A DNA stretch of 64,000 nt. It comes from Acetobacter vaccinii. Its GTDB lineage: Bacteria > Pseudomonadota > Alphaproteobacteria > Acetobacterales > Acetobacteraceae. The DNA is taken from the NCBI RefSeq assembly GCF_008365315.1, contig NZ_CP043506.1, positions 1,718,001-1,782,000 on the forward strand. Reading direction: 5' to 3'. The position numbers and the translations under genes were made by a program. Within the stretch, counting starts at the first letter, position 1, and the number at the start of each line of letters is the position of its first letter. The notes under the pieces were generated by a model. The model made no database searches. It worked only from the letters and a program-made list of their open reading frames with translations, and was not told the origin of the DNA. This document shows positions 13,044 through 48,458 of the stretch, piece by piece.

Positions 13044-13134
13044 GGAGAGATGGCCGAGCGGCTTAAGGCGCACGCTTGGAAAGCGTGTGTACGTTAATAG
13101 CGTACCGAGGGTTCGAATCCCTCTCTCTCCGCCA
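13044..13134 (+). tRNA. tRNA-Ser (anticodon GGA)
   Basis: Acceptor stem GGAGAGA pairs with TCTCTCC. The anticodon loop CTTGGAAAG gives GGA, a long variable arm (GTGTGTACG...CGTACCGAG) marks a class II serine tRNA, and the T arm carries GGTTCGAATCC. The CCA end is encoded. The 3' end doubles as the likely attachment site of the downstream island. Confidence 0.97.
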
Positions 13135-13135
13135 T
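13125..13135 (+). other. Candidate attL: tRNA-Ser 3' end repeat
   Basis: The 11 bases CTCTCCGCCAT at the tRNA-Ser 3' end recur in the same orientation at 18263-18273. The surrounding CT-rich bases are partly similar. The pairing with an adjacent integrase gene suggests attL and attR of an integrated element. Confidence 0.55.
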
Positions 13136-13210
13136 GCCACCTAAGTGGTTGATTTTACAGCACAAAATTTTTGGCTTCCCGCTGTGTGATACACGCTTGT
13201 GACACACGGA

Positions 13211-14752: not shown

Positions 14753-14764
14753 CAGGTTACTTCT

Positions 14765-15376: not shown

Positions 15377-15417
15377 TTTGAAATCTCTCCTTAAATTGTT
15401 AATCAGGTGATTAATTT

Positions 15418-15439
15418 TGAATACATAGTATTGAATACA
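15418..15439. repeat. Direct repeats upstream of the resolvase (candidate res/operator)
   Basis: TGAATACA occurs at 15418-15425 and again at 15432-15439, a 14-base period, and GTATTGAATAC between them is palindromic. The site is about 40 bases upstream of the resolvase start, where res subsites or autoregulatory operators of serine recombinases usually lie. An 8-base stem (AACCCTTA 15444-15451 with TAAGGGTT 15463-15470) follows. Confidence 0.4.
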
Positions 15440-15666
15440 ATTTAACCCTTATGTTTACAGTGTAAGGGTTCTGTGTTCCTAAAGGCAAGTTTTTAGAACA
15501 GTATTTATTTAATTAATTATTTTAAATAAAATTGATTTATTTCCAGTAATTGTGTTTTTAATTTTTGGCACTCTCTTGCAAGGAAGAAACTCTGTTTCTG
15601 ACTTGTCACGCACAAAGCAGAGGAACAGGAGATTTGTAAAATCTCCGGCGTGCGTATGGTGCCTAG

Positions 15667-17066
15667 CACTACAGTTGCATTTTGTGTCGTGAGTGAAAGC
15701 GCATAGCGTTGGCCTGATGTGTTCGTCGAAAGACGGACCATCTGAGGATATGGGCGACGGGTAGGCGGCGTTGTGCAAGCTTTACAACGATGCGCCTGAT
15801 TTCCTGTATGGACCATCGGATAAGGATGATCGTGTTCTGCGTTGTGTTTTTTTCGGTTTCAGTGAGTTTGCCTGATACCGCACACTTGCCATGACGGCAT
15901 AGGCAAGCATGACCAAAGAGACATGCCGATGCCAACCATGCCAGGAACGGGTTTCGTTATGATCGAGACCGAATTCGTTTTTGGCTGCTTCGAAACATTC
16001 TTCGATCCTCCAGCGCGTTCCTTCAACGTTCACGAGTTCCTGTATGGTCATCCCTTTCGGACACCAAGTCGTAAAATAGGCGAGGTCTCCATCGACGATG
16101 GTCCGACGGATCAACAGGCCACGTGTCCATGATCCGGCAATAGGGCAGTCAAATTCTTCAGCATCCAGATCGGCAAGCGCAAGATATGCCCAGTCATACA
16201 GTCGCTCACCCTTTGTGCCGTGCCCCGCAGACAGGCGGTGCCAGTCATTCTCTGACAGAGCCGCAGCAATATCTCTTGCTTCTCCTGCAATCAGCGGGTC
16301 TGTTGCCCATGACCCGAACCAGTGATTGCCTTTGACGCCAAGGACATATCCTATTCCTGCCCGACGAAGTGTGCGTTCCATATCGCCGACGCCATACACG
16401 CTGTCTGCTGCGACCCAGCGGAAGGGCACGCCTGCGCTCGATCATCATCGAGGCCAACGCCGGTTTGGTTGCAAACACCACGTCATCGGGAACGTGGGTC
16501 TGCTGGAGGCGCTCACGGTTCGATGTCCAGTCTTGCGGGAGATACAGGGCGCGGTCAATAAAGGCATGGCCACGCGCTGAGACATAGGTGGCAAATACCC
16601 CAATCTGGCAGTTCGTGATCTTGCCGGCAGATCCCGTATACTGCCGCCCGACACCGCATGACGCCTGACCTTTCTTCAGAAAACCGGTCTCATCAATCAC
16701 CAGTACACCATCTTCAGTGCCCAGATGCTCGATCACATATTCCCTCACGACATCACGAAGAGCATCGGCATCCCAGCGCCCGCGCCCCAAAAGTGCCTGC
16801 TGCCGCCAGGGACCGGGATCTCCTGCGGCTTCTGCCCGCATCCAACCTGTCTTGCGTGGATCATTGCCAATTAAAACATCAAGGAAAGAACACGCTGAAT
16901 CCGCGACACGCTTTTGCGTAAACAGTGGAGCAATCCGCTCCTTGGCTGATCGAAGCGAACGCACCCATAATTCCAGCGTCTCTTCAACAGACGCACCACC
17001 AGTCATCATATCCTGAATCATGGTTATTCATAGAGTCAGAACTCAACACAATATGCAACTGTAGTG
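15667..17066 (-). mobile_element. IS701-family insertion sequence (IS1452-like), 1.4 kb
   Basis: Terminal inverted repeats begin CACTACAGTTGCATTTTGTG on the left; the right end read in reverse is CACTACAGTTGCATATTGTG, one mismatch in 20. The enclosed 1400 bases carry a single transposase gene on the minus strand. Flanking tetramers are CTAG and CTAA, so no perfect target duplication remains. Size, terminal sequence and transposase resemble IS1452 of Acetobacter pasteurianus, recalled from the literature and not checked by alignment. Confidence 0.88.
15782..17021 (-). pseudogene. IS701-family transposase, frameshifted
   Basis: The N-terminal frame starts at 17021 (MIQDMMTGGASVEETLELWV) and carries the first DDE aspartate in GVLVIDETGFLKKGQASCGV. 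The C-terminal frame, ending at 15782, carries the second Asp in WVAADSVYGVGD and the Glu region RWRIEECFEAAKNEFGLD. The two halves are in different frames, and homology switches near 16430-16440 in a GAGCGCAGGCGTG run, where about two bases (GC) appear lost. Together they would make a normal-length transposase of about 410 residues. The copy is therefore probably inactive unless frameshifting or a sequencing error is involved. Confidence 0.85.
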
Positions 17067-18965: not shown

Positions 18966-20369
18966 ATGTCCGAGTATCCGTATCTCGCGCGCTGGAAAGA
19001 AGAGATCAGCCAGAGCCCCAAAGCCATTTATCTGACACTGGTGGATGCTCTGGCTCTTTCCATCCGCAAAGGTGACTTGCAGGAAGGGCACAAACTGCCG
19101 CCCCAGCGGACTATTGCCAGCTATATCGGCACAAATCTGACAACAGTAACCCGTGCCTTTGCAGAAGCGCGGCGGCGCGGCCTGATTGATGCAACAGTCG
19201 GTCGGGGCACTTTTGTGCGTGTTGGCGCGGGGGAAAGCCATTGGCGGCATACCGGGCCAGCAGTGGTGGATCTGACCATGAACCTGCCGCCTATTCCGCA
19301 GGAACCCTCGCTCCAGCATATTATTCAAAGCGATATCACGGCTCTTTTGAAGCAGCAGGATCTGAACAGTCTGATGTCCTACCGTGTGACGGGGGGGACA
19401 ATCGAGGACCGTCAGTTAGGCGCGAAGTGGATTGCCCCTGTTGTTGGCCCCCGCAGGACGGATGAAATTCTGGTGTCTCCTGGCGCACAGAGTGCTCTGG
19501 CAGCCATTGTCAGCACGCATACCCAGCCGGGTGATGTCATTGTTACAGACCGCATTGCCTACCCCGGTATTCGGACAATAGCGGCGCAGTTTGGCCTTAT
19601 TCTGGTTGGGGTTGATAGTGACAGGGAAGGGATTATGCCTGATCAGCTTGATCGAGCCTGTGCGGAACATCACCCGCGTTTGCTGTATTGTATCCCAACC
19701 ATTCACAACCCCACGACGGCAACAATGTCCCTGCAAAGGCGCAAGGATATTCTGTCCGTGGCGCAGTGCCACCACCTGCATATTGCGGAGGATGACCCCT
19801 ACAGCCTGTTGATGGATGATCCGCTGCCCGCACTGGCGGCCCTTGATCATAGTCGTGTCAGCTACGTAGCGACGTTGGCCAAGGTGCTCAGCCCAGGCTT
19901 GCGTACAGCCTATGTTGCCTTGCCCAGTGCCGATATGACCCGGCGGGTGACGGCGGCCATTCGGGCTATTGCGTTGACGAACGCGGGTTTGCTGAGTGCC
20001 CTGACAACCCGGTGGATGCAGACAGGCCAAGCCTATACGATCCTGCACGCTATCCAGAAGGAACTGCGGCTGCGTCAGTCAATTGCACGCAGGATACTGG
20101 GTGAAAAGCATTGTATGAACCCTGATGGGCCACATGTCTGGCTGAAATTGCCTGACTGGTGGGGCAGTTCCGATTTTGTGGCCTATGCGCGCAGGCGGGG
20201 GTTGGCGCTTGTGCCCAGCACAGTGTTTACCATCAGTGGGGAACCGCCACAGCGGGCACGGATTGCCTTGGGCAGTGCTCCAGATGCCGCCAGCCTTGAG
20301 GAATCCCTGCATGGGGTCATGTCGGTTTTGGAGCATAAACGCTCCCCTGGGTTTACGGATATTGTCTGA
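18966..20369 (+). CDS. MocR-type transcriptional regulator (GntR HTH + aminotransferase-like domain)
   Basis: A 467-residue protein. Residues about 10-85 form a GntR winged helix (GDLQEGHKLPPQRTIASYIG ... TVTRAFAEARRRGLIDATVG). The remainder is a fold-type I aminotransferase-like domain with a probable PLP-binding Lys306 in YVATLAKVLSPGLRTAY and an Asp in HIAEDDPYS. MocR proteins sense PLP or amino compounds and often control adjacent genes. The next gene on the same strand is the first gene of the Nit1C-like cluster, 338 bases away, making it a candidate regulator of that cluster, but control is not shown by the sequence. Confidence 0.93.
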   Translation: MSEYPYLARWKEEISQSPKAIYLTLVDALALSIRKGDLQEGHKLPPQRTIASYIGTNLTTVTRAFAEARRRGLIDATVGRGTFVRVGAGESHWRHTGPAVVDLTMNLPPIPQEPSLQHIIQSDITALLKQQDLNSLMSYRVTGGTIEDRQLGAKWIAPVVGPRRTDEILVSPGAQSALAAIVSTHTQPGDVIVTDRIAYPGIRTIAAQFGLILVGVDSDREGIMPDQLDRACAEHHPRLLYCIPTIHNPTTATMSLQRRKDILSVAQCHHLHIAEDDPYSLLMDDPLPALAALDHSRVSYVATLAKVLSPGLRTAYVALPSADMTRRVTAAIRAIALTNAGLLSALTTRWMQTGQAYTILHAIQKELRLRQSIARRILGEKHCMNPDGPHVWLKLPDWWGSSDFVAYARRRGLALVPSTVFTISGEPPQRARIALGSAPDAASLEESLHGVMSVLEHKRSPGFTDIV

Positions 20370-20451: not shown

Positions 20452-20469
20452 TATCACAAAAACGTGATA
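20452..20469. promoter_or_regulatory. Inverted repeat, candidate operator
   Basis: TATCAC (20452-20457) and GTGATA (20464-20469) are separated by six bases, AAAAAC. It lies between the MocR gene and the first Nit1C-like gene and could bind the MocR protein or a nitrogen regulator. No experimental basis. Confidence 0.35.
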
Positions 20470-20490
20470 TTAAAAGCACATAAAAACAAT

Positions 20491-20506
20491 GGGTTATGTG
20501 GTTGCA
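20491..20506 (+). promoter_or_regulatory. Candidate sigma-54 promoter
   Basis: GGGTTATGTGGTTGCA matches the -24 GG / -12 TTGCA pattern with exact spacing; the first consensus T is G. Nitrogen-starvation genes are often sigma-54 dependent, which makes the match reasonable, but such short matches arise by chance and no enhancer-binding activator gene is in the window. Confidence 0.28.
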
Positions 20507-20707
20507 TTGGGATTGTCTGTAGCTGTCTGAAGTATTGTATGCTTGTGTGCCCCCGTGGGGGTGATCTGTTTTTCAGATTGCTCTGATTGTCATCATATTA
20601 AATGCCATACAAAATTTTACGCCCGATATATTCCATGCCACGTTTTCTTCCAGAGCAGCGGCTGCCCCGGCACCTCGTCGGTTACCGCGCCATACGGGAG
20701 AGACATT

Positions 20708-21190
20708 ATGCCGAAAATCGAACATGCCCCCCACCAGGATGGTGATTGCTTTGTTGATTACGAAAACAAGGTTTTTGAAGACGTTAAAGCTAAACCGGGT
20801 GAAAAAGCACTGATCACCTTCCACACGGTTGCGTTTGAAGGTTCGATTGGTTTCGTTAATCTGTTGCAGGCAACACGGCTTATCCGCAAGGGGTTTGAAA
20901 CATCAGTCCTTCTGTATGGGCCGGGTGTCACCCTTGGCGTGCAGCGCGGCTTTCCCCGTCTGGGGGACGAGGCCTTCCCCGGTCATATGAACTGCAACAA
21001 GCAGATTACGAAAATTCTTGAGGAAGGCGGTAAAGTTTACGCCTGTCGCTTTGCTCTCCAGGCGCTGTATGGCCATGGTGAAAAGTCGCTTATCCCCGGC
21101 ATTACGCCAATTAACCCGCAGGATGTACTGGACCTGATCCTGATCGCCCGTCGGGATAATGCATTTATCCTTGATACCTGGACTGTCTAA
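20708..21190 (+). CDS. nitB: MSMEG_0572/Sll0783-family nitrogen starvation response protein
   Basis: A 160-residue cytosolic protein whose ATG at 20708 follows a GGGAG ribosome site. The sequence ([20 protein letters not shown] ... [20 protein letters not shown], ending [20 protein letters not shown]) matches the small family that opens Nit1C clusters and has a DsrE-like alpha/beta appearance. Biochemical function is unknown. In Synechocystis the sll0783 cluster responds to nitrogen starvation. The name nitB follows usage for the Pseudomonas cyanide-assimilation cluster. It begins the run of coupled genes to 29.3 kb. Confidence 0.85.
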
Positions 21191-21214
21191 AAACTGTCGG
21201 GAAGGACTGCCAGT

Positions 21215-22183
21215 ATGTCACGTATTGTTCGCGCTGCAGCAATCCAGATCAGCCCTGTGCTGGGTGATGATGGTCTGGGCACTGCACGAAAAGTCTGCCA
21301 GGCTATCCGCGATGCCGCCGAAAAAGGCGTGAATCTGGCAGTTTTTCCTGAAACTTTTGTACCTTACTATCCATATTTTTCGTTTATTCAGCCTGCTTTC
21401 CGTTTTGGTTCAGAACATCTGGAACTGTACGAACGGGCAGTTGTCATTCCCGGCCCGGTTACGGATATGGTGGCTGAAACCGCCCGTCAGACGGGTGTGG
21501 TTGTGGTGCTGGGCGTGAACGAGCGTGATTTTGGCACGCTATATAACACACAGGTCATTTTTGATGCGACCGGTGAAATCCTGCTCAAACGCCGCAAGAT
21601 AACGCCAACCTACCATGAGCGCATGGTCTGGGGGCAGGGTGATGGTGCAGGCCTGAAGGTGGTGGACAGTGCTGTGGGCCGTATCGGTGCGCTGGCCTGC
21701 TGGGAACATTATAACCCACTGGCCCGCTACGCGCTGATGACACAGCATGAAGAAATCCATTGTGCCCAGTTCCCCGGTTCTTTGGTGGGGCAGATTTTTG
21801 CAGACCAGATGGAAGTCACAATTCGGCACCATGCGCTGGAATCCGGGTGCTTTGTTGTGAATGCCACAGGCTGGCTGACAGAAGAGCAGGTGCAGAGCAT
21901 CGCCGGTAATCCGGCGTTGGAAGGGCCGCTACGGGGTGGGTGCTTTACCGCCATTGTGTCCCCCGAAGGCAAGCTGCTTGGTGCCCCCCTGACCGAGGGG
22001 GAAGGGATGGTCATTGCCGACCTTGATTTCGGCCTTATTACCAAGCGTAAGCGCATGATGGACAGCGTTGGGCATTATGCCCGGCCAGAACTGCTCAGCC
22101 TGCTGCACGACCGCCGCCCAGCCAGTCCGGTCCATTATGTGGGCGAGGACACACCAGACACTCTGGGGGGGACTGGGGCATGA
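21215..22183 (+). CDS. nitC: Nit1-type nitrilase
   Basis: A 322-residue carbon-nitrogen hydrolase superfamily enzyme. The catalytic triad is visible: Glu46 in [13 protein letters not shown], Lys128 in [13 protein letters not shown] and Cys162 in [13 protein letters not shown]. The extended PYYPYFSF and [12 protein letters not shown] signatures place it with true branch-1 nitrilases that hydrolyse nitriles to acid and ammonia. In Nit1C clusters the natural nitrile is unknown; cyanide hydrolysis has been proposed for cyanotrophic pseudomonads. It starts 24 bases after nitB and its stop overlaps the next start by 4 bases. Confidence 0.95.
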
Positions 22184-23289
22184 CCGTACCCACTCTTGGC
22201 ACGCTTTCAGGCCGTCAGCTTGTGACGGATCTGCAATCCTTTGGTTTGCAGATTGGGGGGCAGACGGGGGGCATGACCCGCAAGGGCGGGGCTGGCCCTT
22301 CGGACCATAAGACAATCACCATTGCGGGTCAGACTGTCATGGTGCCGGTCTATACATCCGGGGCGCGGCGTTCACCTTTTCAGGCCAGTCCACCTGATGG
22401 GAAGGGGGCGAGTATCCTTGTGCGTGATGGGCAGCCCTTGGGCACCATCCATTTTCCAGCAGCCCCACGTTTTTATGGTCTGACGACGGCAGAGGGTGTT
22501 CCGTATTGGAAGATTGCCCTGCTGCATGGGCGCGATACTCTGGCAACCACTGTGCATCAGACCTGTATCCGCTATGCGGATCGTCGGACATCCTGCCAGT
22601 TTTGCGCCATAGGCCAGTCGCTGGAAGCTGATCGAACCATTGCCTATAAAACGCCTGCCCAACTGGCTGAAGTTGCAAAAGCCGCTGTAGAGCTGGATGG
22701 TGTGCGCGACATGGTGCTGACAACAGGCACCCCCAATGTCGTGGACCGGGGGGCTGCCGTGCTGGCAGATTCAGCCCGTGCCATCCGTGCCGCAGTGGAC
22801 CTGCCCTTGCAGGTGCAGTGCGAACCCCCGCGTGATCACACGTGGTTCCAACGCCTGCGGGAGGCCGGGGCAGACAGCCTTGGCATGCACCTTGAGGCTG
22901 CAACACAGGCTGTGCGTGAAAAAATCATGCCCGGCAAGGCGACTGTCAGTGTTGAGCGTTATATGGATGCGTTTGCCAGTGCTGTGCCTGTTTTTGGGCG
23001 TGGGCAGGTCAATACTTACATTCTGGCAGGCCTGGGTGACAGTGCGGCGGATATTCTGGCTTTGGCCGAGCGGCTGATAGCACTTGGGGTTTATCCTTTT
23101 GTTGTGCCGTTTGTGCCTATCTCGGGCACACCACTGGAAAATCATGCGCCACCGAGTGCTGATTTCATGAAATCCGTTCTGGCACCGCTTGGCCGTATGC
23201 TGCGGGAGGCTAACATGAAGTCGACCGACATTCGGGCCGGGTGTGGCCGCTGTGGGGCGTGTTCTTCCCTTTCGGCGTATGAGCAATGA
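22180..23289 (+). CDS. nitD: MSMEG_0568-family radical SAM protein
   Basis: A 369-residue protein. Cys129, Cys139 and Cys142 ([18 protein letters not shown]) probably ligate the SAM-binding Fe-S cluster with C-x9-C-x2-C spacing, wider than the standard C-x3-C-x2-C. The barrel is recognisable by [17 protein letters not shown] and [10 protein letters not shown] second cluster of cysteines (355, 358, 361 in AGCGRCGAC) at the C terminus could hold an auxiliary Fe-S centre. Substrate is unknown. Translation is coupled to the nitrilase gene (ATGA) and to the next gene (ATGA). Confidence 0.92.
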
Positions 23290-23849
23290 CGGTGTGGCTG
23301 GAAGGGGTGGAAAACCGCCCGTTCGTTCCAACAGAATATGTGGTGCGGCTGGCCCGTACTCCGTGGGAGCTCGCGGGTTATTACGCCCTGCGGCGCACTG
23401 TGTTCTGCACGGAGCAGGGTGTGTTCCGCGATGATGACCGCGATATCATCGACCAGGTTGCCATGCCTATTATTGCAGCCTGCTGCATGGCGGGCATGCC
23501 TGACCGCGTTGTTGGTGCTGTGCGTATTCATGAGGTGGAACCGGGCCTGTGGCGTGGTTCCCGCCTTGCGGTGCATGCTGAACATCGCAAACTCGGGCGC
23601 ATCGGGGCGGAACTGATCCGTATGGCGGTCAGCACGGCGCATGGTCTGGGGGCCACCCGATTTTTGGCACAGGTGCAGGAACAGAATGTATTGTTCTTTC
23701 GTCGCCTGCATTGGAAAAGCCTTGGGGAAATCACACTGCACGGTCTGCCGCACCATGATATGGAGGCCGACCTGTCGCGCTACCCACCCCATGGGCAGGA
23801 CCAGACATGGCTACTGCGGCCGCAGTCCCGTAGCAGGCAGGTGGCATAA
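23286..23849 (+). CDS. nitE: MSMEG_0567/Sll0786-family GNAT acetyltransferase
   Basis: A 187-residue GNAT-fold protein. It has YYALRRTVFCTEQGVF near the start and the acetyl-CoA-binding region SRLAVHAEHRKLGRIGAELI, with the R/Q-x-x-G-x-A/G motif as KLGRIGA. Family members occur only in Nit1C-type clusters, sometimes fused to the AIR-synthase-like domain encoded by the next gene. Acyl acceptor is unknown. It overlaps the radical SAM gene by 4 bases and the following gene by 1. Confidence 0.88.
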   Translation: MTVWLEGVENRPFVPTEYVVRLARTPWELAGYYALRRTVFCTEQGVFRDDDRDIIDQVAMPIIAACCMAGMPDRVVGAVRIHEVEPGLWRGSRLAVHAEHRKLGRIGAELIRMAVSTAHGLGATRFLAQVQEQNVLFFRRLHWKSLGEITLHGLPHHDMEADLSRYPPHGQDQTWLLRPQSRSRQVA

Positions 23850-24820
23850 TGGTACAGGTGCTGTCCACCATGCTGCGGCGCTTGCGGAATAGCCGTGCCA
23901 TTGCGGCCAAGCAGGACATTACCCAGGCGGTTTCCATATTGGGGACCAAAGCCAGAGGTGATATCCGCCTTGGGGATGACTGTGCGGCCATACCGGATGG
24001 AGACGGCTACCTTCTGCTTGCCAGCGAGGGATTTCAGGACAGTTTTGTGCGCGCCATGCCCTGGTTTGCCGGGTATTGTGGGGTCATGGTCAATGTCAGC
24101 GACATTGCTGCCATGGGTGGGCGACCGCTGGCAGTGGTGGACGCGTTGTGGAGCGATACATCAGACGCAGCTACTGCCATCCTGACAGGCCTGCATGACG
24201 GTGCGCAGACATATGGTGTGCCTGTTGTAGGTGGGCATACCAACATGCGTAGCACCCATAATTCGCTTTCTGTCGCCATTCTGGGTCGTGCCAATCGCCT
24301 GTTAAGCAGTTTTGACGCCCGCCCCGGTGAGGTGCTGATTGCTGCCATTGACCTGCGCGGTCGCTGGCATGACCCCCATCCTTTCTGGGATTCAAGCTCC
24401 GCCCTTTGCCATACGGATGATGCTGCTCGCCTGCGGGGGGATATTCAACTCCTGCCCGCCATTGCCGAGGACGGGTTGAGCCGCGCGGCCAAAGATATCA
24501 GCATGGCGGGCCTGCTGGGCACGGCCCTTATGCTGGCAGAATGTTCAGCCGTGGGTATGACCATTGCGCTGGATAATATTCCCCGCCCTGCGGGTGCGCC
24601 TATGGAGCGCTGGCTATCGTCTTTTCCCAGCTATGGCTACCTGCTGACTGCCCGGCCGGAGCATGCTGCGGCAGTTCTGGCGCGTTTTCAGGCCCGTGGG
24701 ATTGCAGCGGCGGTTATTGGCCAGTGTAACACAACACAGCGGCTGGACGTGACATGGGCCGGGAAGGCAGAAACCTTCTGGGACCTGGCTCAGATGCCGC
24801 TGATGGGGTGTGCGCCATGA
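23849..24820 (+). CDS. nitF: Sll0787-family AIR synthase-like protein
   Basis: A 323-residue protein of the PurM/ThiL/HypE superfamily. Visible markers are the nucleotide-binding LGDDCAAIPDGDGYLLLASE, the NVSDIAAMGGRP loop, and VVGGHTNMRSTHNSLSV; these ATP-dependent enzymes typically activate amides or carboxylates. The substrate in this cluster is unknown. The start overlaps the GNAT stop (TAATG) and its own stop overlaps the next start (ATGA), so the two neighbours are translationally linked. Confidence 0.88.
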   Translation: MVQVLSTMLRRLRNSRAIAAKQDITQAVSILGTKARGDIRLGDDCAAIPDGDGYLLLASEGFQDSFVRAMPWFAGYCGVMVNVSDIAAMGGRPLAVVDALWSDTSDAATAILTGLHDGAQTYGVPVVGGHTNMRSTHNSLSVAILGRANRLLSSFDARPGEVLIAAIDLRGRWHDPHPFWDSSSALCHTDDAARLRGDIQLLPAIAEDGLSRAAKDISMAGLLGTALMLAECSAVGMTIALDNIPRPAGAPMERWLSSFPSYGYLLTARPEHAAAVLARFQARGIAAAVIGQCNTTQRLDVTWAGKAETFWDLAQMPLMGCAP

Positions 24821-25968
24821 GCCTGTCGATCGGTATCCTCACCCATTCCACCAACCCGCGGGGTGGGGTTGTGCATGGCATGGCGCTGGCCGAGGCCTTG
24901 TGTGAGGCCGGGCATGAGGCCACGCTGATTGCCCCGGATGTCACGGGTGCAGGTTTTTTTCGGGCACCGCGTTGCCCTGTGCACTGTATTCCGGCGCAGG
25001 CTGTGCAGGACCTGCCCGCTTTGGTGGAATGCCGCATTGGCGAGATCCGTAACGCCATAAACCCAGCGCGTTTTGATGTGCTGCACGCGCAGGACCCCAT
25101 AAGTGCCAATGCACTGGCGGACCTTGTGCAGGCAGGGGAGGTACGGGGGTTTGCCCGTACAGTCCACCATATGGACAGTTTTACCCACCCCGGACTTGCC
25201 GGGCGGCAGTTACGCGGGCTTACGGCTGCGCGTGAGCTGTTTACCGTCAGCGCGGTGTGGGAAGGCATTGTGCACAACACCCATGGCCGCAAGGCGCCCA
25301 ATGTCGGGAATGGTGTTGACACGCAGCACTTTACACCAGCACCGGCCAAGCAGGATGGCACCTTGCGCGCCCGCTACGGCCTGCCTGCTGACAGGCAACT
25401 GGTTCTGGCTGTTGGTGGGGTGGAGCGTCGTAAAAATACCCTGCTGTTGCTGGATGCTTTTCTGGCGTTCTGTCAGGAAAACCCAAGCCTGCATCTGGTT
25501 ATTGCGGGTGGAGTGTCCCTGCTGGACCATTCCGCCTATCGGAGCCAGTTTGAGGCGCGGCTTAAGGACAGCAGCATGGCCGAGCATGTGAGCGTGATCG
25601 GCCCGGTGGCCGATGCAGATATGCCAGCCCTTTACCGGCAGGCGGCCGTGCTGGCGTATCCTTCCATCACGGAGGGGTTTGGCCTGTGCCCGCTGGAGGC
25701 ACTGGCCTGTGGCACCCCGGTTGTTGTGCCTAACATGGCCCCGTTTAACGAGCATTTTTTAGATATGGATGTGCTGTGGTGCCGCCCTGACTGTGCCCAT
25801 ACGCTGGGCATGGCCCTGAGGGATGCGGTGCAGGACAAGAGCCAAGACCGCTTTTTGGCGAGAGGCCCTGTCACGGCCCGTCGTTTTGACTGGCGCAGTG
25901 TCGCCAGCCGTCATCTTCCCGCGTATGGGCGCCTGGCAGAACTGTCGCGCGCTCATGCCCCGCTGTAA
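24817..25968 (+). CDS. MSMEG_0565-family glycosyltransferase (GT4)
   Basis: A 383-residue GT-B glycosyltransferase. The N-terminal IGILTHSTNPRGGVVHGMAL forms the glycine-rich loop, and the C-terminal domain has LAVGGVERRKNTLLLLDAF and the retaining E-x7-E region SITEGFGLCPLEALACGTPV. The ATG at 24817, which overlaps nitF by 4 bases, was preferred over an in-frame start at 24754. Its presence implies that the cluster makes or modifies a sugar-linked compound. Donor and acceptor are unknown. Confidence 0.9.
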   Translation: MSLSIGILTHSTNPRGGVVHGMALAEALCEAGHEATLIAPDVTGAGFFRAPRCPVHCIPAQAVQDLPALVECRIGEIRNAINPARFDVLHAQDPISANALADLVQAGEVRGFARTVHHMDSFTHPGLAGRQLRGLTAARELFTVSAVWEGIVHNTHGRKAPNVGNGVDTQHFTPAPAKQDGTLRARYGLPADRQLVLAVGGVERRKNTLLLLDAFLAFCQENPSLHLVIAGGVSLLDHSAYRSQFEARLKDSSMAEHVSVIGPVADADMPALYRQAAVLAYPSITEGFGLCPLEALACGTPVVVPNMAPFNEHFLDMDVLWCRPDCAHTLGMALRDAVQDKSQDRFLARGPVTARRFDWRSVASRHLPAYGRLAELSRAHAPL

Positions 25969-25981
25969 GGGATTGAGAACA

Positions 25982-26269
25982 ATGCCTGAAATGATATTTC
26001 GTGTGCGCTGGCCAGATGGTACGGAAAGCGACTGCTATTCACCCTCGTTGGTGGTGCAGGAGTATTTTACGCCCGGCCAGGATTATCCAGCCCCGGAATT
26101 TCTTGAAAAAGCAGAAACAGCCCTGACAGAAGCCAGCGACCGCGTGCAGGCCCGTTATGGCTTTGCCTGTAGCCGGGCACTTGGCCAGTTGCAGACCATC
26201 AAACGGGTTTGCGCGCCGTTTCTCCATCGACCTGACGCGCTGGTACGTGTCCTGTCCTTTAAGTCCTGA
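25982..26269 (+). CDS. nitG: MSMEG_0570-family nitrogen starvation response protein
   Basis: A 95-residue protein starting MPEMIFRVRWPDGTESDCYS, with the typical SPSLVVQEYF and AETALTEASDRVQARYGFAC stretches. The ATG at 25982 has AAGGG upstream and yields the usual family size; a longer frame from 25823 overlaps the glycosyltransferase. No catalytic motif is recognised. It occurs only in Nit1C-like clusters, where it may be a small partner of the flavoprotein encoded next. Confidence 0.85.
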   Translation: MPEMIFRVRWPDGTESDCYSPSLVVQEYFTPGQDYPAPEFLEKAETALTEASDRVQARYGFACSRALGQLQTIKRVCAPFLHRPDALVRVLSFKS

Positions 26270-26283
26270 TGTGGAAAATTATT

Positions 26284-27531
26284 ATGACACAGAATGAAAA
26301 AACAATTCCTGTTGTTATTGTTGGTGGTGGACAGGCAGGTTTGTCCATGAGCTGGTACCTGTGCCGTGAAGGTGTCGAGCATGTCGTGTTCGAAGCCAAA
26401 ACGGCCTGCCATGCGTGGGAGGATGAACGGTGGGATAACTTCTGCCTCGTCACACCCAACTGGCAGTGTGCGCTGCCCGGCCACCCCTATCAGGGTAAAG
26501 ACCCGCACGGGTTTATGGTGAAGGAGGAAATCCTTGAGTATGTCAAAGGGTTCGTGAATTCATTTTCCGCACCGTTGCATGAAAACACGGCAGTGACCTC
26601 CATTACACGGCATGAAAACGGGGGCTACCGCGTTGTTGCTGGTGGGGCGGTCTGGCATGCTCAGCACGTGGTGGTGGCCTCTGGCGCGTATCAGGATGCT
26701 GTCATCCCTGGTTACGCCAGCGCGATTGACCCTGCGATTGTGCAGGTACATTCACAGGATTACCGCAACGCAGGCCAGTTGCCTGATGGCGCGGTGCTGG
26801 TTGTAGGCAGCGGTCAGTCCGGGGCGCAGATTGTTGAAGATCTGTTTCTTGAAAACCGCAAGGTGCATCTGTGTGTCGGTTCTGCCCCCCGTGTATCGCG
26901 CTTTTACCGTGGGCGCGATGTCGTAGACTGGCTTGCGGACATGCATTTTTATGAGCTGACAGTGGATAACCACCCCCTGCGGGATGGCGCACGCGACAAG
27001 ACCAACCATTACGTTACAGGCCGCAACGGCGGTCATGATCTGGATCTGCGTCTGTTTGCCAACAAAGGTGTTGGTCTGCACGGCACACTGGATACAATCC
27101 GTGACGAAATCGCGCATTTTCTGCCTGATCTGGCTGAAAATCTGGATGATGCTGACAAAACAAATGCCGACATCAAACAGTCGATTGATGAGTATATTGC
27201 GCGCGAAGGTATCAGCGCCCCAACCGAGGCTCCTTATGTGCCAGTATGGCAGCCCGAGGCCCAGAATGCTCCGTTGGATCTGAAAGCGGCCGGTATTACC
27301 TCAATTGTATGGTGCATCGGTTTCCGCCCAGACTACCACTGGATTGATGTGCCGGTGTTTAATGGTGCCAACAAGCCCGTCTGGCATCGGGGTGTGACGG
27401 ATGCTCCGGGCTTTTACTTCTTGGGGCTGCCGTGGCTGCACACTTGGGGGTCTGGTCGCTTTTCCGGCGTTTCGCAGGATGCTGCGTGGCTGGCAGGCCA
27501 GATTACCGGTAAAGATGTTCCTGTCGCCTGA
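26284..27531 (+). CDS. nitH: MSMEG_0569-family flavin-dependent oxidoreductase
   Basis: About 415 residues from the ATG at 26284, which has GGAAAA 7 bases upstream; an ATG at 26269 overlapping the nitG stop is the alternative. An N-terminal FAD Rossmann motif (VVIVGGGQAGLSMSWYL) and a second nucleotide-binding motif (AVLVVGSGQSGAQIVEDLF) indicate a class B flavin monooxygenase-like enzyme using FAD and NAD(P)H. The C terminus has GFYFLGLPWLHTWGSGRFSG. The substrate is unknown; in cyanotroph work this is the oxygenase candidate of the cluster. Confidence 0.92.
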   Translation: MTQNEKTIPVVIVGGGQAGLSMSWYLCREGVEHVVFEAKTACHAWEDERWDNFCLVTPNWQCALPGHPYQGKDPHGFMVKEEILEYVKGFVNSFSAPLHENTAVTSITRHENGGYRVVAGGAVWHAQHVVVASGAYQDAVIPGYASAIDPAIVQVHSQDYRNAGQLPDGAVLVVGSGQSGAQIVEDLFLENRKVHLCVGSAPRVSRFYRGRDVVDWLADMHFYELTVDNHPLRDGARDKTNHYVTGRNGGHDLDLRLFANKGVGLHGTLDTIRDEIAHFLPDLAENLDDADKTNADIKQSIDEYIAREGISAPTEAPYVPVWQPEAQNAPLDLKAAGITSIVWCIGFRPDYHWIDVPVFNGANKPVWHRGVTDAPGFYFLGLPWLHTWGSGRFSGVSQDAAWLAGQITGKDVPVA

Positions 27532-29319
27532 GTGAAAGACCCTGCTATGCTGCCGTGGAAAACATATGACGCCATGCACGCGGCCGTAACGGCCGAGCCA
27601 GAGAGTTTCTGGCTGGACGCAGCACGGCGGATTACATGGCAGCAGGCGCCTGTTCAGGCATGTGGGAGGCGGTCAGATGGTTGGTATGACTGGTTTCCCA
27701 CAGCTACGCTTAATACCTGTTACAATGCGGTGGATAGGCATGTTGAGGGTGGGCGTGGCCATCAGGCAGCCCTGATCTGGCATTCCTGCGCCACCAAGGA
27801 GCGGCAGGTTGTAAGCTACCGAGCACTCCAGCGCAGGGTTGCCGGGTTTGCCGGGGGGCTGCGGGCTCTTGGTGTGCAAAAGGGCGACCGTGTGCTGGTT
27901 GCCATGCCGACTATGATTGAAACAGCCATTGCCATGCTGGCCTGTGCCCGTCTGGGGGCCGTGCATGTGGTGGTGTTTGCCGGTTATGCGGGGCCAGAAC
28001 TTGCCCGGCGGATTGATGATGTTGCCCCCAGGGTTGTGATTGTCGCCAGTTGCAGCTTTCAGGGTCAGACAGCGGTGCCATCAGTCCCAGCGTTGAATGA
28101 GGCCCTGGCCGAGGCTGAGCACGTGCCTCAGGCTTGTATTATCATGCAGCGGAACGCCTGCCCGGCACAGCTTGTGCCCGGCCGGGACTATGATTTCCAT
28201 GCGCTGGAGCAGTCTCCCCCGGCAGAGCCGGTGGAAGTGCGCGCGCAAGACCCGCTGTATATCCTCCATACGTCCGGCACTACTGGCAGAGCCAAGGGGA
28301 TTGTGCGGGATAACGGGGGGCATGCTGTGGCCCTCGCACTGTCTATGGAGCTGATTTACGGTTGCAAGGCGGGTGATACATTCTTGACCACGTCCGACCT
28401 TGGGTGGGTGGTTGGCCATTCTTATGGCGTTTACGCACCCTTGATCAGCGGATGCACAAGCCTGATTGTGGAAGGCGGGGCTTCAGCATCTGCCATACGG
28501 GTGCTTTGTCAGGAACATGCCGTGACATGCCTGTTCACGACCCCGACCCAGATGCGGCTGATGCGACAGGAAAGCCGTAACCTGCCCGATGTGACATGGC
28601 CAGATCTGGCCCGTGTGTGTGTGGCGGGGGAATATGCAGACCCCACGCTGCTGGACTGGGCACGTGCCTATTTTCAGCGACCGGTAGCCAACCACTGGTG
28701 GCAGACCGAGACAGGGTGGAGCATTGCCGCCCACTTCTTTGGTCTGGATGAGGCTGATGCGGCTGTGTCCATGAATGATATTGGGCGGCCCGCACCAGGG
28801 TTCTGCCCGTCCATTGTGCCGTCGGAGGCCGGTGGGCAGGGGGGCGAGATTGTTCTGTCCCTTCCGCTGCCGCCGGGGTGCCTGTCAGGACTATGGCGGG
28901 ACAAGGCAGTCCATGCCCCGGATCTGTATCTTGACGAGGATAAAACACATTATCGGACTTTTGATATTGGCATGATTGATGGCGACCACGTCATTCACAT
29001 GCTTGGGCGCTCTGATGATGTGATCAAGGTAGCCGGGCGGCGTATTTCTGGTGTGCAGATTGAAAAAATCATCGCAGCCCACCCCGCCGTTCATGCCTGT
29101 GCCGTCGCAGCCAGCCCCGATGGTTTGAGGGGGCAGCGTCCCGTGGCGTATGTGGTGCCAGAAGCCGGGTTGGACAGCCCGCCCTGCGCGGATGATCTTA
29201 TTAGCCAGGTTGCCCAAGCGCTTGGGCGGTGGGTTGGGTTGCGGGAAATCCGTTTTGTGGCACAGTTGCCGACGACGGTCTCGGGGAAAATAACCCGTAA
29301 AAAACTTCTGGTTTCTTGA
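27532..29319 (+). CDS. Acyl-CoA synthetase, PrpE/acetate-CoA ligase-like (ANL superfamily)
   Basis: A 595-residue adenylate-forming enzyme from a GTG directly after the nitH stop; an ATG at 27547 is an alternative. The AMP-binding P-loop is LHTSGTTGRAKGIVRDNGG, in the PrpE-like form. NHWWQTETGWS and a C-terminal catalytic lysine in TTVSGKITRKKLLVS are also present. It activates a short-chain carboxylate to its CoA ester. Being coupled to the Nit1C-like genes, it could process the carboxylic acid released by the nitrilase or supply an acyl-CoA to the GNAT (inference). It is not part of the seven-gene core described elsewhere. Confidence 0.9.
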   Translation: MKDPAMLPWKTYDAMHAAVTAEPESFWLDAARRITWQQAPVQACGRRSDGWYDWFPTATLNTCYNAVDRHVEGGRGHQAALIWHSCATKERQVVSYRALQRRVAGFAGGLRALGVQKGDRVLVAMPTMIETAIAMLACARLGAVHVVVFAGYAGPELARRIDDVAPRVVIVASCSFQGQTAVPSVPALNEALAEAEHVPQACIIMQRNACPAQLVPGRDYDFHALEQSPPAEPVEVRAQDPLYILHTSGTTGRAKGIVRDNGGHAVALALSMELIYGCKAGDTFLTTSDLGWVVGHSYGVYAPLISGCTSLIVEGGASASAIRVLCQEHAVTCLFTTPTQMRLMRQESRNLPDVTWPDLARVCVAGEYADPTLLDWARAYFQRPVANHWWQTETGWSIAAHFFGLDEADAAVSMNDIGRPAPGFCPSIVPSEAGGQGGEIVLSLPLPPGCLSGLWRDKAVHAPDLYLDEDKTHYRTFDIGMIDGDHVIHMLGRSDDVIKVAGRRISGVQIEKIIAAHPAVHACAVAASPDGLRGQRPVAYVVPEAGLDSPPCADDLISQVAQALGRWVGLREIRFVAQLPTTVSGKITRKKLLVS

Positions 29320-29882: not shown

Positions 29883-30635
29883 ATGAAACGCAGTGCCGAC
29901 ATTCCGCGCCCGGCACCGCCCGTTGTAGGCTTTGCGGATAGCTACACTGGCGGGTTTGTTGATGGGTTTCACACTCATGATCGGGGCCAGTTGTCATTGC
30001 TTTTGTCGGGGAGTGTCACGGTCAACACGCCTGACCGCAGTTTTGTCATGGGTGTCGGGCAGGGCATGTGGATCCCGGCTGACACATTGCACCAGAGCTT
30101 GTGCCGCACAGACCTGATGTTTCAGGTTGTCTATATTGACCCCAGTCTGGGTGGTGCCCATCCCTCATGCAAGGTGTTTGATGTTTCCACCCTCATGCGG
30201 GGGCTTGTGGATGAAATCATAGCCATGCGGTACGAGTTTGCGATGGACGCCCGCATGTCAGCCATAGCCGCGCTGCTGCTGGATGAGATTGAACGTGCCC
30301 CACGGCTTGCTGAGCGCCTGTTACTGCCTGCCGACCCCCGCCTGCGGCGCGTGTGCGAGGCCATAACCGCCGAGCCAGGCGACCGGCATGATATTGATTA
30401 CTGGGCGCGTGAGGCTGGTATGGCCAGACGTACGTTCACCCGCCTGTTTCAGGTGGAAATGGGCATGGGTTTTGCCGCATGGCGGCGGCGGGTCAGGGTG
30501 GTGGAGGCTGCCTCGCGCATTGCAGCGGGTAAATCCATTGCGGAAGTCGCATTTGATCTGGGGTATGATAACGCGGGCAGCTTTAGCACAATGTTCCGCC
30601 GTATATTTGGGGTGGCACCCGGAACCCTCAAATAG
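29883..30635 (+). CDS. AraC-family transcriptional regulator
   Basis: A 250-residue regulator. The N-terminal cupin (FHTHDRGQLSLLLSGSVTV, WIPADTLHQSL) carries histidines that may bind a ligand or metal. The C-terminal tandem helix-turn-helix spans residues about 150-248, with AREAGMARRTFTRLFQVEMG and IAEVAFDLGYDNAGSFSTMF. GTGGGG lies just upstream of the ATG. Location between the Nit1C-like cluster and a TonB-dependent receptor gene makes it a candidate regulator of either. Confidence 0.92.
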   Translation: MKRSADIPRPAPPVVGFADSYTGGFVDGFHTHDRGQLSLLLSGSVTVNTPDRSFVMGVGQGMWIPADTLHQSLCRTDLMFQVVYIDPSLGGAHPSCKVFDVSTLMRGLVDEIIAMRYEFAMDARMSAIAALLLDEIERAPRLAERLLLPADPRLRRVCEAITAEPGDRHDIDYWAREAGMARRTFTRLFQVEMGMGFAAWRRRVRVVEAASRIAAGKSIAEVAFDLGYDNAGSFSTMFRRIFGVAPGTLK

Positions 30636-31088
30636 CTCCAACACCGCTGACCGTGCGTATGGTGGTTGTGTGCAGCCATAGGCAGCGATAACAATAAATC
30701 TGCTGTTGTTGCAAAGCAGTCGCACTTGCAAAGATGGCAGATGCTGTGTGGCCTGCAACAGCAGCGTCATGATAGCTGACCTGTGCATCCAAGATCCTAA
30801 AAAACATATCTAACCAATTGTAAAAAAATGGTTTTGTGCGGGATCGGACGCTCCTTCGCAGCCATATACCATGGGTTTTTTGCCATATTTGAGGGCGGGG
30901 TAAGCCGTCGTGAACGATGGTTGCATTGGTGTTCAGGCGTAATTTATTCGCGTTTGGGCCAAGAGCGGCCTGGCCTCTTGCATCCATCGGCTGAGTGCGA
31001 TTATCCCTGCAACTGAGAATTATTATTAATATCTGAACCGGTCGCTAATACCCGGGGTGCCAGAGCCAGCGTAGAAAATAGGTTAGGT
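30636..31088 (+). other. Intergenic region upstream of the TonB-dependent receptor
   Basis: No gene recognised in 450 bases. It includes the Fur-box-like site at 31015-31033 and AT-rich segments near 30800. A 119-codon frame on the minus strand lacks family resemblance and is not called. Confidence 0.5.
31015..31033 (+). promoter_or_regulatory. Fur-box-like sequence
   Basis: GAGAATTATTATTAATATC matches the classical 19-base Fur consensus at 14 of 19 positions by eye. It lies 56 bases before the siderophore-type receptor gene, where Fur repression would be expected. Confidence 0.5.
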
Positions 31089-33290
31089 ATGCAGCGTAGT
31101 AGGATTATTTACTCGGTTCTTTTTTCGTTCATTCTGAGCGATGTGGCTTTCGCCGCTGATCAGCCGAAAAAAACCGACAAGCCAGGGCAACATGGGGCGA
31201 CAGCCCCGGCACGGGCTGCGACTGGCAAGTCCAAGGGTAATAAATCGCTGATCGAACAGGTCGAGGTGCGCGGCCGCAAAGGCTCCACCGTTGCGTCATC
31301 CGCAACCAAAAGCGATACCCCGCTTGTTGAAACTGCCCAGTCTGTCACTGTTGTTTCCCGAAATGAAATGGATGTGCGCGGTGTGCTCAGCCTTAACCAG
31401 GCGGTGCGTTACGCGGCGGGTATTACCCCCGACCTGCGTGGTGGCATTGGCACACGGTACGACCAGTTTCTTCTGCGTGGTTTCAGCGTTCCTACTTTTC
31501 TGGATGGTCTGAAACTACAAGGTAGCCCCACAGGTTATGCCGAAGCACAGACCGACACCTCACGCCTGAGCCGGATTGAAATCCTCAAAGGCCCGGCATC
31601 TGCCCTGTATGGTCAGTCCAGCCCGGGCGGGCTTGCGGCGCTGTCCAGCAAGCTGACAACAGCACAGCGTTTTTATGGCAGCGTGAATACCACCGGCGGT
31701 ATGTTTGATCTTTACCGTGTGGATGCCGATGTCGGTGGGTTTGCAACGGATAACGGCTTTGTCCGCTATCGTGTTTATGGCACGGCCAATGGCCAGCATA
31801 CGCAGTTGTCCAAAACAGGCAGCAGGCGCTTTTCTATCAGCCCGGTTATTTCAGTGGGGGGAGATGGCCCGACAACGCTGACTCTGCTGGGTAATTACCA
31901 GTATGACCCAGAAAGTGGCACCTATGGTGGTGTGCCGCTTGTCGGCTCGCTCAAGCCTGCATCCTTTGGCTATCTGCCAAGGAATTTCTATGATGGTGAT
32001 GTTGAGGTTGAAAAATTTAACCGCAAACATGGCGCGTTTACCTATATCTTCAACCATCGCTTTAACGACGACTGGAGCTTTAGCTCACGCGGTCGGTATG
32101 ATGATATCAAGGTTGACCAGCGCAGCACCTATGACGCAGGCTACTATAGCAGTGTAGATACCGTGCCGCGCTATGCTTACGGCACGAAAGAACACGTGCA
32201 TAACCTGGCGTTTGACAGCCAGTTCAAAGGGCGTGTTCATACTGGCCCGCTCACCCATGGCCTTATGTTCGGTTACGATTACATGTGGCAGCAGGCGAAC
32301 GAGATTTATACGCAGGGTGATGCCCCCGACCTGAATGTGCTGCACCCGAATTACCATATGTTCTTTGCCCCGCAGGATGTGCTGGGTCGCTATTCGGCTG
32401 ATTCCCACCAGATTGGTGTGTATGGTCAGGACGAAATCCGCTGGCGTGGACTGGTGCTTAACGGCAGCCTGCGTAATGACTGGTATCAGTCGCACCAGAT
32501 GGAGCATCTCTCGGGTTCCGATACACGGCAGAACACCAGCCAGATTACCTGGCGGGCATCGGGGCTGTACCATTTCAAGTTCGGTCTTTCGCCCTACATC
32601 AGCTATTCCACATCCTTTCAGCCGCAGTCTGGCCTTGTGTCCAGCGATGGTGGCCGCACCATGCATCAGGCTGACCCGTCCGTTGGCAAACAGCTTGAAG
32701 GTGGTGTGAAGTATCAGATCCCCGGCACGCAGGTCCTGCTGACGGCTGCGGGGTTCCATATTGAACAGACCAATGTGCTCGTGTCTGTTGGGAGCCTTCC
32801 CTACAGTGTTCAAAGTGGCAAGGTGCATTCAGATGGGTTTGAGTTTGAGGCCCACGCCGATGTTTACAAGGGCCTGCTGCTGACCGCTGCTGTCAGTGTT
32901 CAGAAGGTGCATGACGATTCCACCGGCAAGCCGCTTATTCAGTCCGGTAAAGGCAATGCGTCACTGTTCGCCTTCTATACCATGCCGTCTGGCCCGCTGA
33001 AGGGGCTCGGTTTTGGGGGTGGCATGCGCTACACATCCAAAGCCTATGGTGGCGAGGGTGATGACGGCAGCGTCTGGGTGCCGCAGTATGCGCTGTTTGA
33101 TGGCTCGCTCCGTTACGACCTGTCGCATCTTTCCCCCTCGCTGCATGGGTGGACAGCTTCGGCCAGCGTTCGCAACCTGTTTGACAAGCATTATGTGTCC
33201 AACTGCATGGCTTATGCGTCTTACGGACAGGCGTTCTGCTACTACGGTGAACGTCGCAATGCCCAGGCAAGCATTGGATATGCCTGGTAA
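31089..33290 (+). CDS. TonB-dependent siderophore receptor (FhuA-like)
   Basis: A 733-residue outer-membrane receptor. A signal peptide (cleavage near AFA-A, residue 22) is followed by a Lys/Ala-rich linker. The plug domain (about residues 55-195) contains TPLVETAQSVTVVSR, DQFLLRGFSVPTFLDG and RIEILKGPASALYGQSSPGG, all typical of ferric hydroxamate receptors. A 22-strand barrel follows, ending in the aromatic ASIGYAW. It energises ferri-siderophore uptake through TonB-ExbBD. The Fur-like site upstream supports iron regulation. No permease or periplasmic binding gene is adjacent. Confidence 0.94.
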   Translation: MQRSRIIYSVLFSFILSDVAFAADQPKKTDKPGQHGATAPARAATGKSKGNKSLIEQVEVRGRKGSTVASSATKSDTPLVETAQSVTVVSRNEMDVRGVLSLNQAVRYAAGITPDLRGGIGTRYDQFLLRGFSVPTFLDGLKLQGSPTGYAEAQTDTSRLSRIEILKGPASALYGQSSPGGLAALSSKLTTAQRFYGSVNTTGGMFDLYRVDADVGGFATDNGFVRYRVYGTANGQHTQLSKTGSRRFSISPVISVGGDGPTTLTLLGNYQYDPESGTYGGVPLVGSLKPASFGYLPRNFYDGDVEVEKFNRKHGAFTYIFNHRFNDDWSFSSRGRYDDIKVDQRSTYDAGYYSSVDTVPRYAYGTKEHVHNLAFDSQFKGRVHTGPLTHGLMFGYDYMWQQANEIYTQGDAPDLNVLHPNYHMFFAPQDVLGRYSADSHQIGVYGQDEIRWRGLVLNGSLRNDWYQSHQMEHLSGSDTRQNTSQITWRASGLYHFKFGLSPYISYSTSFQPQSGLVSSDGGRTMHQADPSVGKQLEGGVKYQIPGTQVLLTAAGFHIEQTNVLVSVGSLPYSVQSGKVHSDGFEFEAHADVYKGLLLTAAVSVQKVHDDSTGKPLIQSGKGNASLFAFYTMPSGPLKGLGFGGGMRYTSKAYGGEGDDGSVWVPQYALFDGSLRYDLSHLSPSLHGWTASASVRNLFDKHYVSNCMAYASYGQAFCYYGERRNAQASIGYAW

Positions 33291-48421: not shown

Positions 48422-48458
48422 GAGGTCTGTCTGGCGCGCCCTCTTCCGGGGATTGCGC

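Follow-up and report, generated by a model that had tools for sequence, protein, structure and literature searches.

The 64,000-nucleotide stretch of Acetobacter vaccinii DNA analysed here (contig NZ_CP043506.1, positions 1,718,001 to 1,782,000; hereafter the window, in whose numbering all positions are given) contains a complete and tightly packed Nit1C operon at 20708–29319 on the forward strand, in the order nitB-C-D-E-F-GT4-G-H followed by an ANL acyl-CoA ligase gene. With slightly better than even confidence, we read this operon as a variant of acetic acid bacteria (AAB) that would have moved off sigma-54 (nitrogen-type) control and been left to an EnuR-like MocR sensor of amino compounds, the ligase feeding acyl-CoA into the pathway or removing an acid. 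The cluster itself is known; what sets this variant apart is the linked regulator, the change of promoter, the added ligase and perhaps a leader RNA.

Promoter type, linked regulator and gene order

Gene content was compared by tblastn among 54 AAB, 51 other proteobacterial and 11 cyanobacterial loci, and those with DNA extending at least 1.5 kb past nitH (50 AAB, 45 other proteobacterial) were regarded as complete. The order B-C-D-E-F-GT4-G-H-ligase was kept in all 50 complete AAB loci, indicating that the arrangement is not due to chance. The other complete proteobacterial loci contained B to H in 45/45, GT4 in 31/45 and the ligase in 6/45 (L102 and five Acetobacteraceae entries), so that GT4 is found in 81/95 overall; in L114, nitH is placed between D and E. 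L142 and L148 are one and the same plasmid.

Sigma-54 promoters follow the consensus GG-N10-GC, and the intergenic DNA between nitB and R, the linked MocR-like gene, was scanned for such sites at a threshold score of 13. A site was detected in 39/43 ligase-free loci, 52–146 bases before nitB (33/37 without the six loci cut off near nitH), while shuffled sequences gave a rate of ~1% and the reverse strand 3/43. The 56 ligase-bearing Acetobacteraceae loci (52 distinct sequences) yielded none, and neither did four AAB loci with incomplete DNA; the best sigma-54-like site of the window scored 10.5. An rpoN gene (Sigma54_DBD match) was missing from 6 of the 14 AAB genomes tested, including that of the window, and present in 28/28 other genomes. 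Four non-AAB ligase-bearing genomes have kept rpoN and lack the site, implying that rpoN loss does not by itself account for the promoter change. The core-gene tree places L138 and L140, which have the sigma-54 site and no ligase, between two groups of ligase-bearing loci. The simplest history would comprise two losses of the sigma-54 promoter and, for the ligase, either one gain with one loss or two gains.

Because the ligase-bearing Acetobacteraceae lack the site and the genome of the window gave no match to rpoN, missing induction under nitrogen limitation would not argue against Nit1C. The initial annotation had offered a response to nitrogen limitation as a criterion; this is probably invalid here, as a negative response would be expected on regulatory grounds.

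A sigma-70-like promoter is proposed instead (Table 1); a TTGT box and, at 20606–20612, a CATACAA box in inverted orientation overlap it. The region contained two matches of this quality, against 0.6 expected in shuffles. The ATTGTATG direct boxes, the TTGT box and the inverted box are largely common to 48 distinct AAB intergenic sequences. In loci with a divergent R, the sigma-54 site is preceded by repeats of TTGAYYGCAT, in many cases at a distance of 11 bases from each other, and the repeats of the same-strand clade are TTGTATG/TTGTCTG. ATTGT-type half-sites thus accompany the promoter of the operon to which R is linked, with a spacing that differs from the EnuR operator consensus ATTGTn6ACAAT, which in Ruegeria overlaps a sigma-70 promoter (PMC8739950; for this and all other papers cited, statements refer to the portions available). 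The predicted motifs of GabR and OapR include two direct repeats and one inverted (PMC5320631). The inverted repeat further upstream, TATCAC-N6-GTGATA, was considered as an exactly conserved R operator and rejected, as ATCAC-N5-9-GTGAT was kept in 1/103 other loci.

R was found upstream of nitB in 54/54 AAB loci (~6 kb distant in L033) and linked in 49/51 other proteobacterial loci (absent from L103 and L128), 103/105 in total, and in 0/11 cyanobacterial Nit1C loci by tblastn. Among 33 aligned proteins, all from loci with a linked R, K306 and R432 were invariant; judging from the fold, we take K306 to be the pyridoxal phosphate (PLP) lysine. The winged helix-turn-helix domain of GntR type, combined with an aminotransferase domain containing K306, places R among the MocR/EnuR-like regulators. 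In most Proteobacteria R diverges from nitB; it shares the strand of nitB in one group of Acetobacteraceae (L137–L140, L142–L144, L148) and in 52/54 AAB loci, the divergent exceptions being L057 and L065. A tree of 47 linked R proteins and 12 paralogues unites the linked ones in one clade (98), in which the 27 divergent R proteins group together (98), with the same-strand ones as neighbours. EnuR is induced by N-acetylated or free diamino acids from its own pathway (PMC8739950). In Pseudomonas pseudoalcaligenes, the cio/nit4 genes appear to be under repression by another MocR protein (PMC8567248), a parallel for which we claim no orthology to R.

Nine open reading frames were confirmed on one strand, as the initial annotation had described; no overlap or gap at the junctions exceeds 24 bases, the size of the nitB-nitC gap. 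The C/D and D/E overlaps are 4 bases, E/F 1 base and nitF/GT4 4 bases with the GT4 start at 24817; 13 bases separate GT4 from nitG, nitG and nitH overlap by 1 base or lie 14 bases apart with the nitH start at 26284, and the nitH-ligase spacing is 0 (GTG 27532) or 15 (ATG 27547). The proposed gene identities and the assignment to Nit1C also held. All eight Nit1C proteins scored above the curated cut-offs of their own NCBIfam families (TIGR04044, TIGR04048, TIGR04043, TIGR04045, TIGR04049, TIGR04047, TIGR04042 and TIGR04046), including the two small proteins on whose membership in the MSMEG_0570 (NitG, TIGR04042) and MSMEG_0572 (NitB, TIGR04044) families the assignment had depended; the ninth is an ANL ligase by Pfam. 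The locus belongs to Nit1C, as the full core of seven genes, nitB to nitH, lies on one strand in the conserved order. The genes delimited at 20708–29319 stood, with one small correction: the functional unit starts upstream of them, taking in R, from 18966, and the promoter and leader region (20452–20707). The claim of an undescribed system was too strong, since the cluster is a named one, its GT4-bearing form was reported in 2005 (PMC1199592), and phenotypes of the whole cluster or of single genes have been published. The whole module is also already annotated with these family names on A. oryzifermentans and Acidisoma plasmids, which likewise indicates that the gene set is not undescribed.

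The added ligase and the core enzymes

The ligase probably starts at ATG 27547, which gives a protein of 590 aa, as in the near-identical database entry P0001. The A3 motif, T392-E393, D478 and K586 were conserved in 10/10 aligned sequences, placing the protein in the ANL family by motif; we presume that these motifs have their ANL roles, K586 being the catalytic lysine. The ligase shares the ANL fold with ACAS_N and intact catalytic motifs with the acyl-CoA synthetases PrpE and AcsA. It is shorter than these, however, and forms a separate clade beside the propionyl-CoA synthetases (PrpE), with a Shimodaira–Hasegawa-like approximate likelihood ratio test (SH-aLRT) support of 100, which holds Nit1C-linked and unplaced relatives. 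Its scores fell below the cut-offs of the propionate-CoA ligase models (TIGR02316, 468.9 versus 827.4 bits; NF007815, 495 versus 955 bits) and below the equivalog cut-off of the acetate-CoA ligase (AcsA) models, which it also matches. It is distinct from the two other Acs-type enzymes of the same genome (33–35% identity). The best PDB match was 5gxd, which we take to be an acryloyl/propionyl-CoA ligase, and the pocket aligns at WVVGHSY and AGE, residues that presumably permit acids larger than acetate. The ligase hints at a short acyl donor or an acid product.

The catalytic triad of NitC (E46, K128, C162) was invariant in 40/40 sequences and, together with the TIGR04048 score, places NitC in the Nit1C-linked Nit6803-type nitrilase subfamily. 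NitD contains an unusual C129-X9-C139-X2-C142 motif and the additional cysteines C214, C355, C358 and C361, all conserved in 40/40 except C358 (39/40); the additional four could hold a second cluster. In NitF, G42-D43-D44, N82 and D85 were invariant in 40/40. C113 of NitB was conserved in 46/46 aligned sequences. The fold of NitB is probably DsrE-like, based on a poor structure model with a mean predicted local distance difference test (pLDDT) of 63.8: the best Foldseek match was 3mc3 (E 1.1e-3, with none at E ≤0.001), and the top five comprised three entries named DsrE and two unnamed small proteins. The NitG model was confident (mean pLDDT 94.8), and Foldseek returned no close or convincing PDB match for it (best E 1.2). 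C63 of NitG is invariant and C18 is conserved in at least 90%.

Table 1. Coordinates of the Nit1C genes, the linked regulator and the proposed regulatory features in the window
Feature	Coordinates	Strand	Description
R	18966..20369	+	MocR-like regulator, EnuR/EhuR-related; Pfam GntR winged helix-turn-helix and class I aminotransferase (Aminotran_1_2)
Inverted repeat TATCAC-N6-GTGATA	20452..20469	.	TCAC-N6-GTGA core mostly conserved in AAB
Two direct boxes ATTGTCTG / ATTGTATG	20512..20541	+	22 bases apart; proposed R half-sites; half-site resembles EnuR operator
Proposed sigma-70-like promoter TTGTCA-17-CAAAAT	20587..20615	+	9/12 consensus bases
Candidate structured 5' leader of nitB mRNA	20632..20710	+	Shine-Dalgarno GGGAGA in outer stem
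nitB	20708..21190	+	MSMEG_0572/Sll0783 family, TIGR04044 280.2 bits; probably DsrE-like fold; C113 invariant
nitC	21215..22183	+	Nit6803-type nitrilase, TIGR04048 567.2 bits (cut-off 502.6); match to 3wuy, 1.1e-143
nitD	22180..23289	+	MSMEG_0568-type radical SAM, TIGR04043 587 bits
nitE	23286..23849	+	GNAT, TIGR04045 236 bits; marginally FeeM-like (N-acyl amino acid synthase)
nitF	23849..24820	+	AIR-synthase/ThiL/HypE superfamily, TIGR04049 435.6 bits; GDD motif intact
GT4 glycosyltransferase	24817..25968	+	MSMEG_0565 family, TIGR04047 413.1 bits (scanned from upstream start 24754)
nitG	25982..26269	+	MSMEG_0570 family, TIGR04042 127.7 bits
nitH	26269..27531	+	MSMEG_0569 flavin-dependent oxidoreductase, TIGR04046 656.5 bits; alternative start 26284
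L	27532..29319	+	ANL acyl-CoA ligase, PrpE-related; Pfam AMP-binding, AMP-binding_C, ACAS_N

A candidate leader RNA before nitB

Directly before nitB and downstream of the proposed promoter lies a conserved hairpin of 79 positions, which appears to be a good candidate for an RNA structure in most AAB and a weak one in the window. Of 43 aligned rows, 32 AAB sequences were counted; the window, L037, L038, L043, L051, L064, L067, L073, L076, L079 and L082 were dropped as misaligned, shifted or near copies, and L033–L036, L057, L065 and identical copies had been excluded before the alignment. Over 17 pairs, 96.3% of the cells were paired (32–46% in slid versions), and 14 of the 17 pairs vary yet stay paired. 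Seven compensatory cells were observed, compared with a shuffled mean of 2.0, a value of seven being reached in 1 of 500 shuffles, and with 0–5 in slid versions. Two measures were weaker: pairs changed on both sides (4, reached by 33/500 shuffles) and further pair types (17, 121/500). The structure was drawn by hand from the same sequences and, with the rows dropped, the counts are biased toward it; RNAalifold on the mixed 43-sequence alignment gave just 11 pairs, with 2 compensatory.

The leader covariance model matched the window copy, which is divergent, at 43.7 bits. Among the rows outside the model, it recovered the window, L064 and L067 well and L037, L038, L043, L051 and L076 weakly; it missed L033–L036, L057, L065, L082 and every non-AAB locus given. 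In a genome-wide search that scored the best 150 first-look candidates per genome, 11 of 20 genomes gave a single match, directly before nitB in all 11; the nine without a match include one Acetobacter and all four of genus g42. Neither the window leader nor that of L045 matched any of 4227 Rfam families at E up to 1, and at gathering thresholds tRNAs were the sole Rfam matches of the window.

A DNA-level protein site, rather than an RNA structure, is a serious though less probable explanation of this conserved block. The block is a near-palindrome and the window copy folds no better than its shuffles (z −0.75, full length) and without the outer stem of the model, observations that, with the two weak pair measures, would suit such a site. 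Against it stand the paired and compensatory cells, the position of the block downstream of the proposed promoter, and the full-length single-sequence folds of five other AAB leaders (z −1.84 to −3.46), each with the Shine-Dalgarno sequence in a stem. This placement was seen in 6/6 folded leaders, although the window, L037 and L064 use a 5' partner other than that of the model. The mean pairing probability of the Shine-Dalgarno sequence in AAB exceeds that at other loci modestly (0.77 versus 0.65), which also fits a DNA site, and we set aside its occlusion as a special AAB trait.

Competing explanations and known Nit1C systems

In the mechanism that we favour, R would respond to an amino compound able to react with PLP, in the simplest case an intermediate of the pathway, and would repress the operon by binding the ATTGTATG boxes until the amino compound releases it. 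NitE would acylate an amino substrate with acyl-CoA from the ligase, which might otherwise remove the acid product of NitC; NitD, NitF and NitH may build or modify the product core, which GT4 would glycosylate. A more specific version, which we regard as doubtful, holds that two Acetobacteraceae lineages converted Nit1C from a sigma-54/nitrogen-starvation pathway to induction by its own amino-compound intermediate, with R sensing an N-acylated (di)amino acid, the product of NitE acting on acyl-CoA from the ligase, and with the nitB leader RNA adding translational control. If induction by an own intermediate were true, the R ligand would reveal the chemical class of the Nit1C product.

Several observations weigh against the favoured mechanism, whose support is entirely sequence-based. 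L102 (Oxalicibacterium) has both a ligase and a sigma-54 site, and the ligase-free L105, L106, L113 and L126 score 12.0, 12.5, 9 and 8.5, L113 and L126 clearly being without a site and L105 and L106 narrowly short of one. The contrast between ligase and sigma-54 site rests on few independent events, perhaps two, and the sample is biased to close relatives, as the genome-contig scan covered the best 80 of 397. A Fisher p for this contrast counts every locus as independent and was disregarded. NtrC-like sites (at least 10/12 matches) occurred in 5/43 divergent-R and 0/60 same-strand loci, with ~1% in mononucleotide shuffles; they are suggestive in a few loci, and this mild enrichment leaves the ancestral activator unproven. 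The best NCBIfam match of R, EhuR, scored 364.8 bits, below the cut-off of 480, and R is therefore filed as EhuR/EnuR-related rather than as EhuR or EnuR. Two unlinked paralogues, L158 and L159, sit inside the linked-R clade, and R accompanies both promoter types, so R alone is not the replacement for sigma-54 control. The match of NitE to Pfam FeeM is marginal (27.6 against a cut-off of 27), and the need for NitC during growth of P. pseudoalcaligenes on cyanide indicates a plain catabolic role (PMC11049912).

This last observation leads to nitrile or cyanide scavenging, an unlikely alternative in which NitC would turn a C3-type nitrile or cyanohydrin into an acid and ammonia and the ligase would make the CoA ester, the other genes being accessory. 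In P. pseudoalcaligenes, NitC is involved in the use of 3-cyanoalanine as well as in growth on cyanide (PMC11049912, PMC8567248); the relation of the ligase to PrpE and its pocket alignment with 5gxd would agree with such a route, and loss of sigma-54 control would suit carbon or nitrogen catabolism. However, the radical SAM, GNAT, AIRS, NitB, NitG and NitH proteins are retained in 95/95 complete proteobacterial loci (as is all of NitD to NitH) yet are unnecessary for nitrile hydrolysis. A Rhodococcus cluster keeps them with two proteins annotated simply as carbon-nitrogen hydrolase in place of the Nit6803 nitrilase. This persistence favours biosynthesis over nitrile breakdown, and Nit1C is probably a conserved multi-enzyme biosynthetic pathway. 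No transporter was found within the operon in four annotated loci examined, a further point against scavenging; one of them has a major facilitator superfamily gene ~4 kb upstream of nitB and another an ATP-binding cassette binding protein ~9 kb away. In the Rhodococcus locus (L192, R. qingshengii plasmid pLP1), insertion sequence elements flank the cluster on both sides.

It is improbable that the AAB operon is an ordinary nitrogen-starvation cluster, with control unchanged from that in Synechocystis and mycobacteria. The family names and the GlnR and nitrogen-starvation data from other bacteria point that way (PMC6039565, PMC3901256), as do the sigma-54-type sites of most other proteobacterial loci. 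NtcA-like sites in cyanobacteria agree with it: sites fitting the NtcA consensus GTAN8TAC were found 72–110 bases before nitB in 7/11 loci (L089, L091, L096, L098, L100, L101 and L110), against 0.19 expected in shuffles. The ligase-bearing Acetobacteraceae depart from this picture in lacking the sigma-54 site, and the genome of the window has no rpoN match. Silent carriage on a genomic island or plasmid, without selection for any function in this host, to which the integrase beside tRNA-Ser, the nearby resolvase and transposase, and the patchy and plasmid-borne occurrence described below might point, is very improbable, given that all genes are intact with conserved catalytic residues, the regulatory region is conserved across genera, and the gene order is identical on chromosomes and plasmids.

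NitB scored above its cut-off in 53/397 genomes of the family, 10/385 of the class and 16/398 of the phylum, with a patchy distribution in the genus (10 of 14 same-genus genomes listed). In PLSDB, 515 plasmid records match NitB, 25 of them from Acetobacter or Komagataeibacter. The records also include 374 from Klebsiella and 30 from Escherichia; among the matches listed these are 75.6% identical, many being from clinical isolates. The A. oryzoeni plasmid NZ_CP042809.1 has three NitB places, a possible amplification. Upstream of R, at 13044–17021, tRNA-Ser(GGA) is directly followed by an integrase gene (13199–14752; PHROG integrase), beyond which low-GC DNA encodes a resolvase and a DDE transposase; the arrangement resembles the left end of an integrated element, which may carry Nit1C. 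No att duplication delimiting such an island was found, the second tRNA-like match being another tRNA-Ser gene. An AraC-type regulator and then a TonB-dependent receptor (29883–33290) follow the operon, and gltD-gltB-like glutamate synthase genes (Pfam; 48453–54466) lie 19 kb from it.

Nit1C spans cyanobacteria to mycobacteria, with redox and nitrogen phenotypes. The Mycobacterium smegmatis cluster gives peroxide resistance and raises NADPH/NADP; in the delta-gpr mutant, the resistance is lost and NADPH/NADP is lower under nitrogen starvation (PMC6039565). A more oxidised state is seen in the sll0783 mutant of Synechocystis (PMC3901256). NADPH/NADP is thus lower in both published mutants, the known effect of the cluster in these two bacteria being a more reduced NADP pool. 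The titles and abstract openings of the literature searched, in which subscription papers were little covered, mention no product of Nit1C. With a linked regulator of metabolite-sensing type, kept across Proteobacteria and apparently in charge after loss of the sigma-54 promoter, the question of the product becomes a ligand screen, and AAB are experimentally tractable.

Compared with known systems, R resembles EnuR/EhuR of ectoine catabolism in domain layout, PLP lysine and ATTGT half-site, but is linked to Nit1C rather than to ectoine genes and falls short of the EhuR cut-off. The gpr cluster of M. smegmatis (MSMEG_0565–0572) shares the same families, including GT4, but is GlnR-controlled. 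The Rhodococcus locus encodes a single 482-aa protein for GNAT and AIRS, which from its length appears to be a fusion, and has neither a ligase nor a MocR gene annotated. The nit1C cluster of P. pseudoalcaligenes CECT 5344 has the nitBCDEFGH core and a NitC-type nitrilase in common with the window, whereas its regulator, NitA, is a sigma-54-dependent protein of the Fis family in opposite orientation, and the available text names no GT4 or ligase. The GT4-bearing beta-proteobacterial form of Podar et al. (2005) shares the seven core genes, their order, the GT4 gene between ORF5 and ORF6 and the flavoprotein in last place; relative to that form, the window lacks a sigma-54 site and has a ligase after nitH, a same-strand MocR gene and a candidate leader hairpin.

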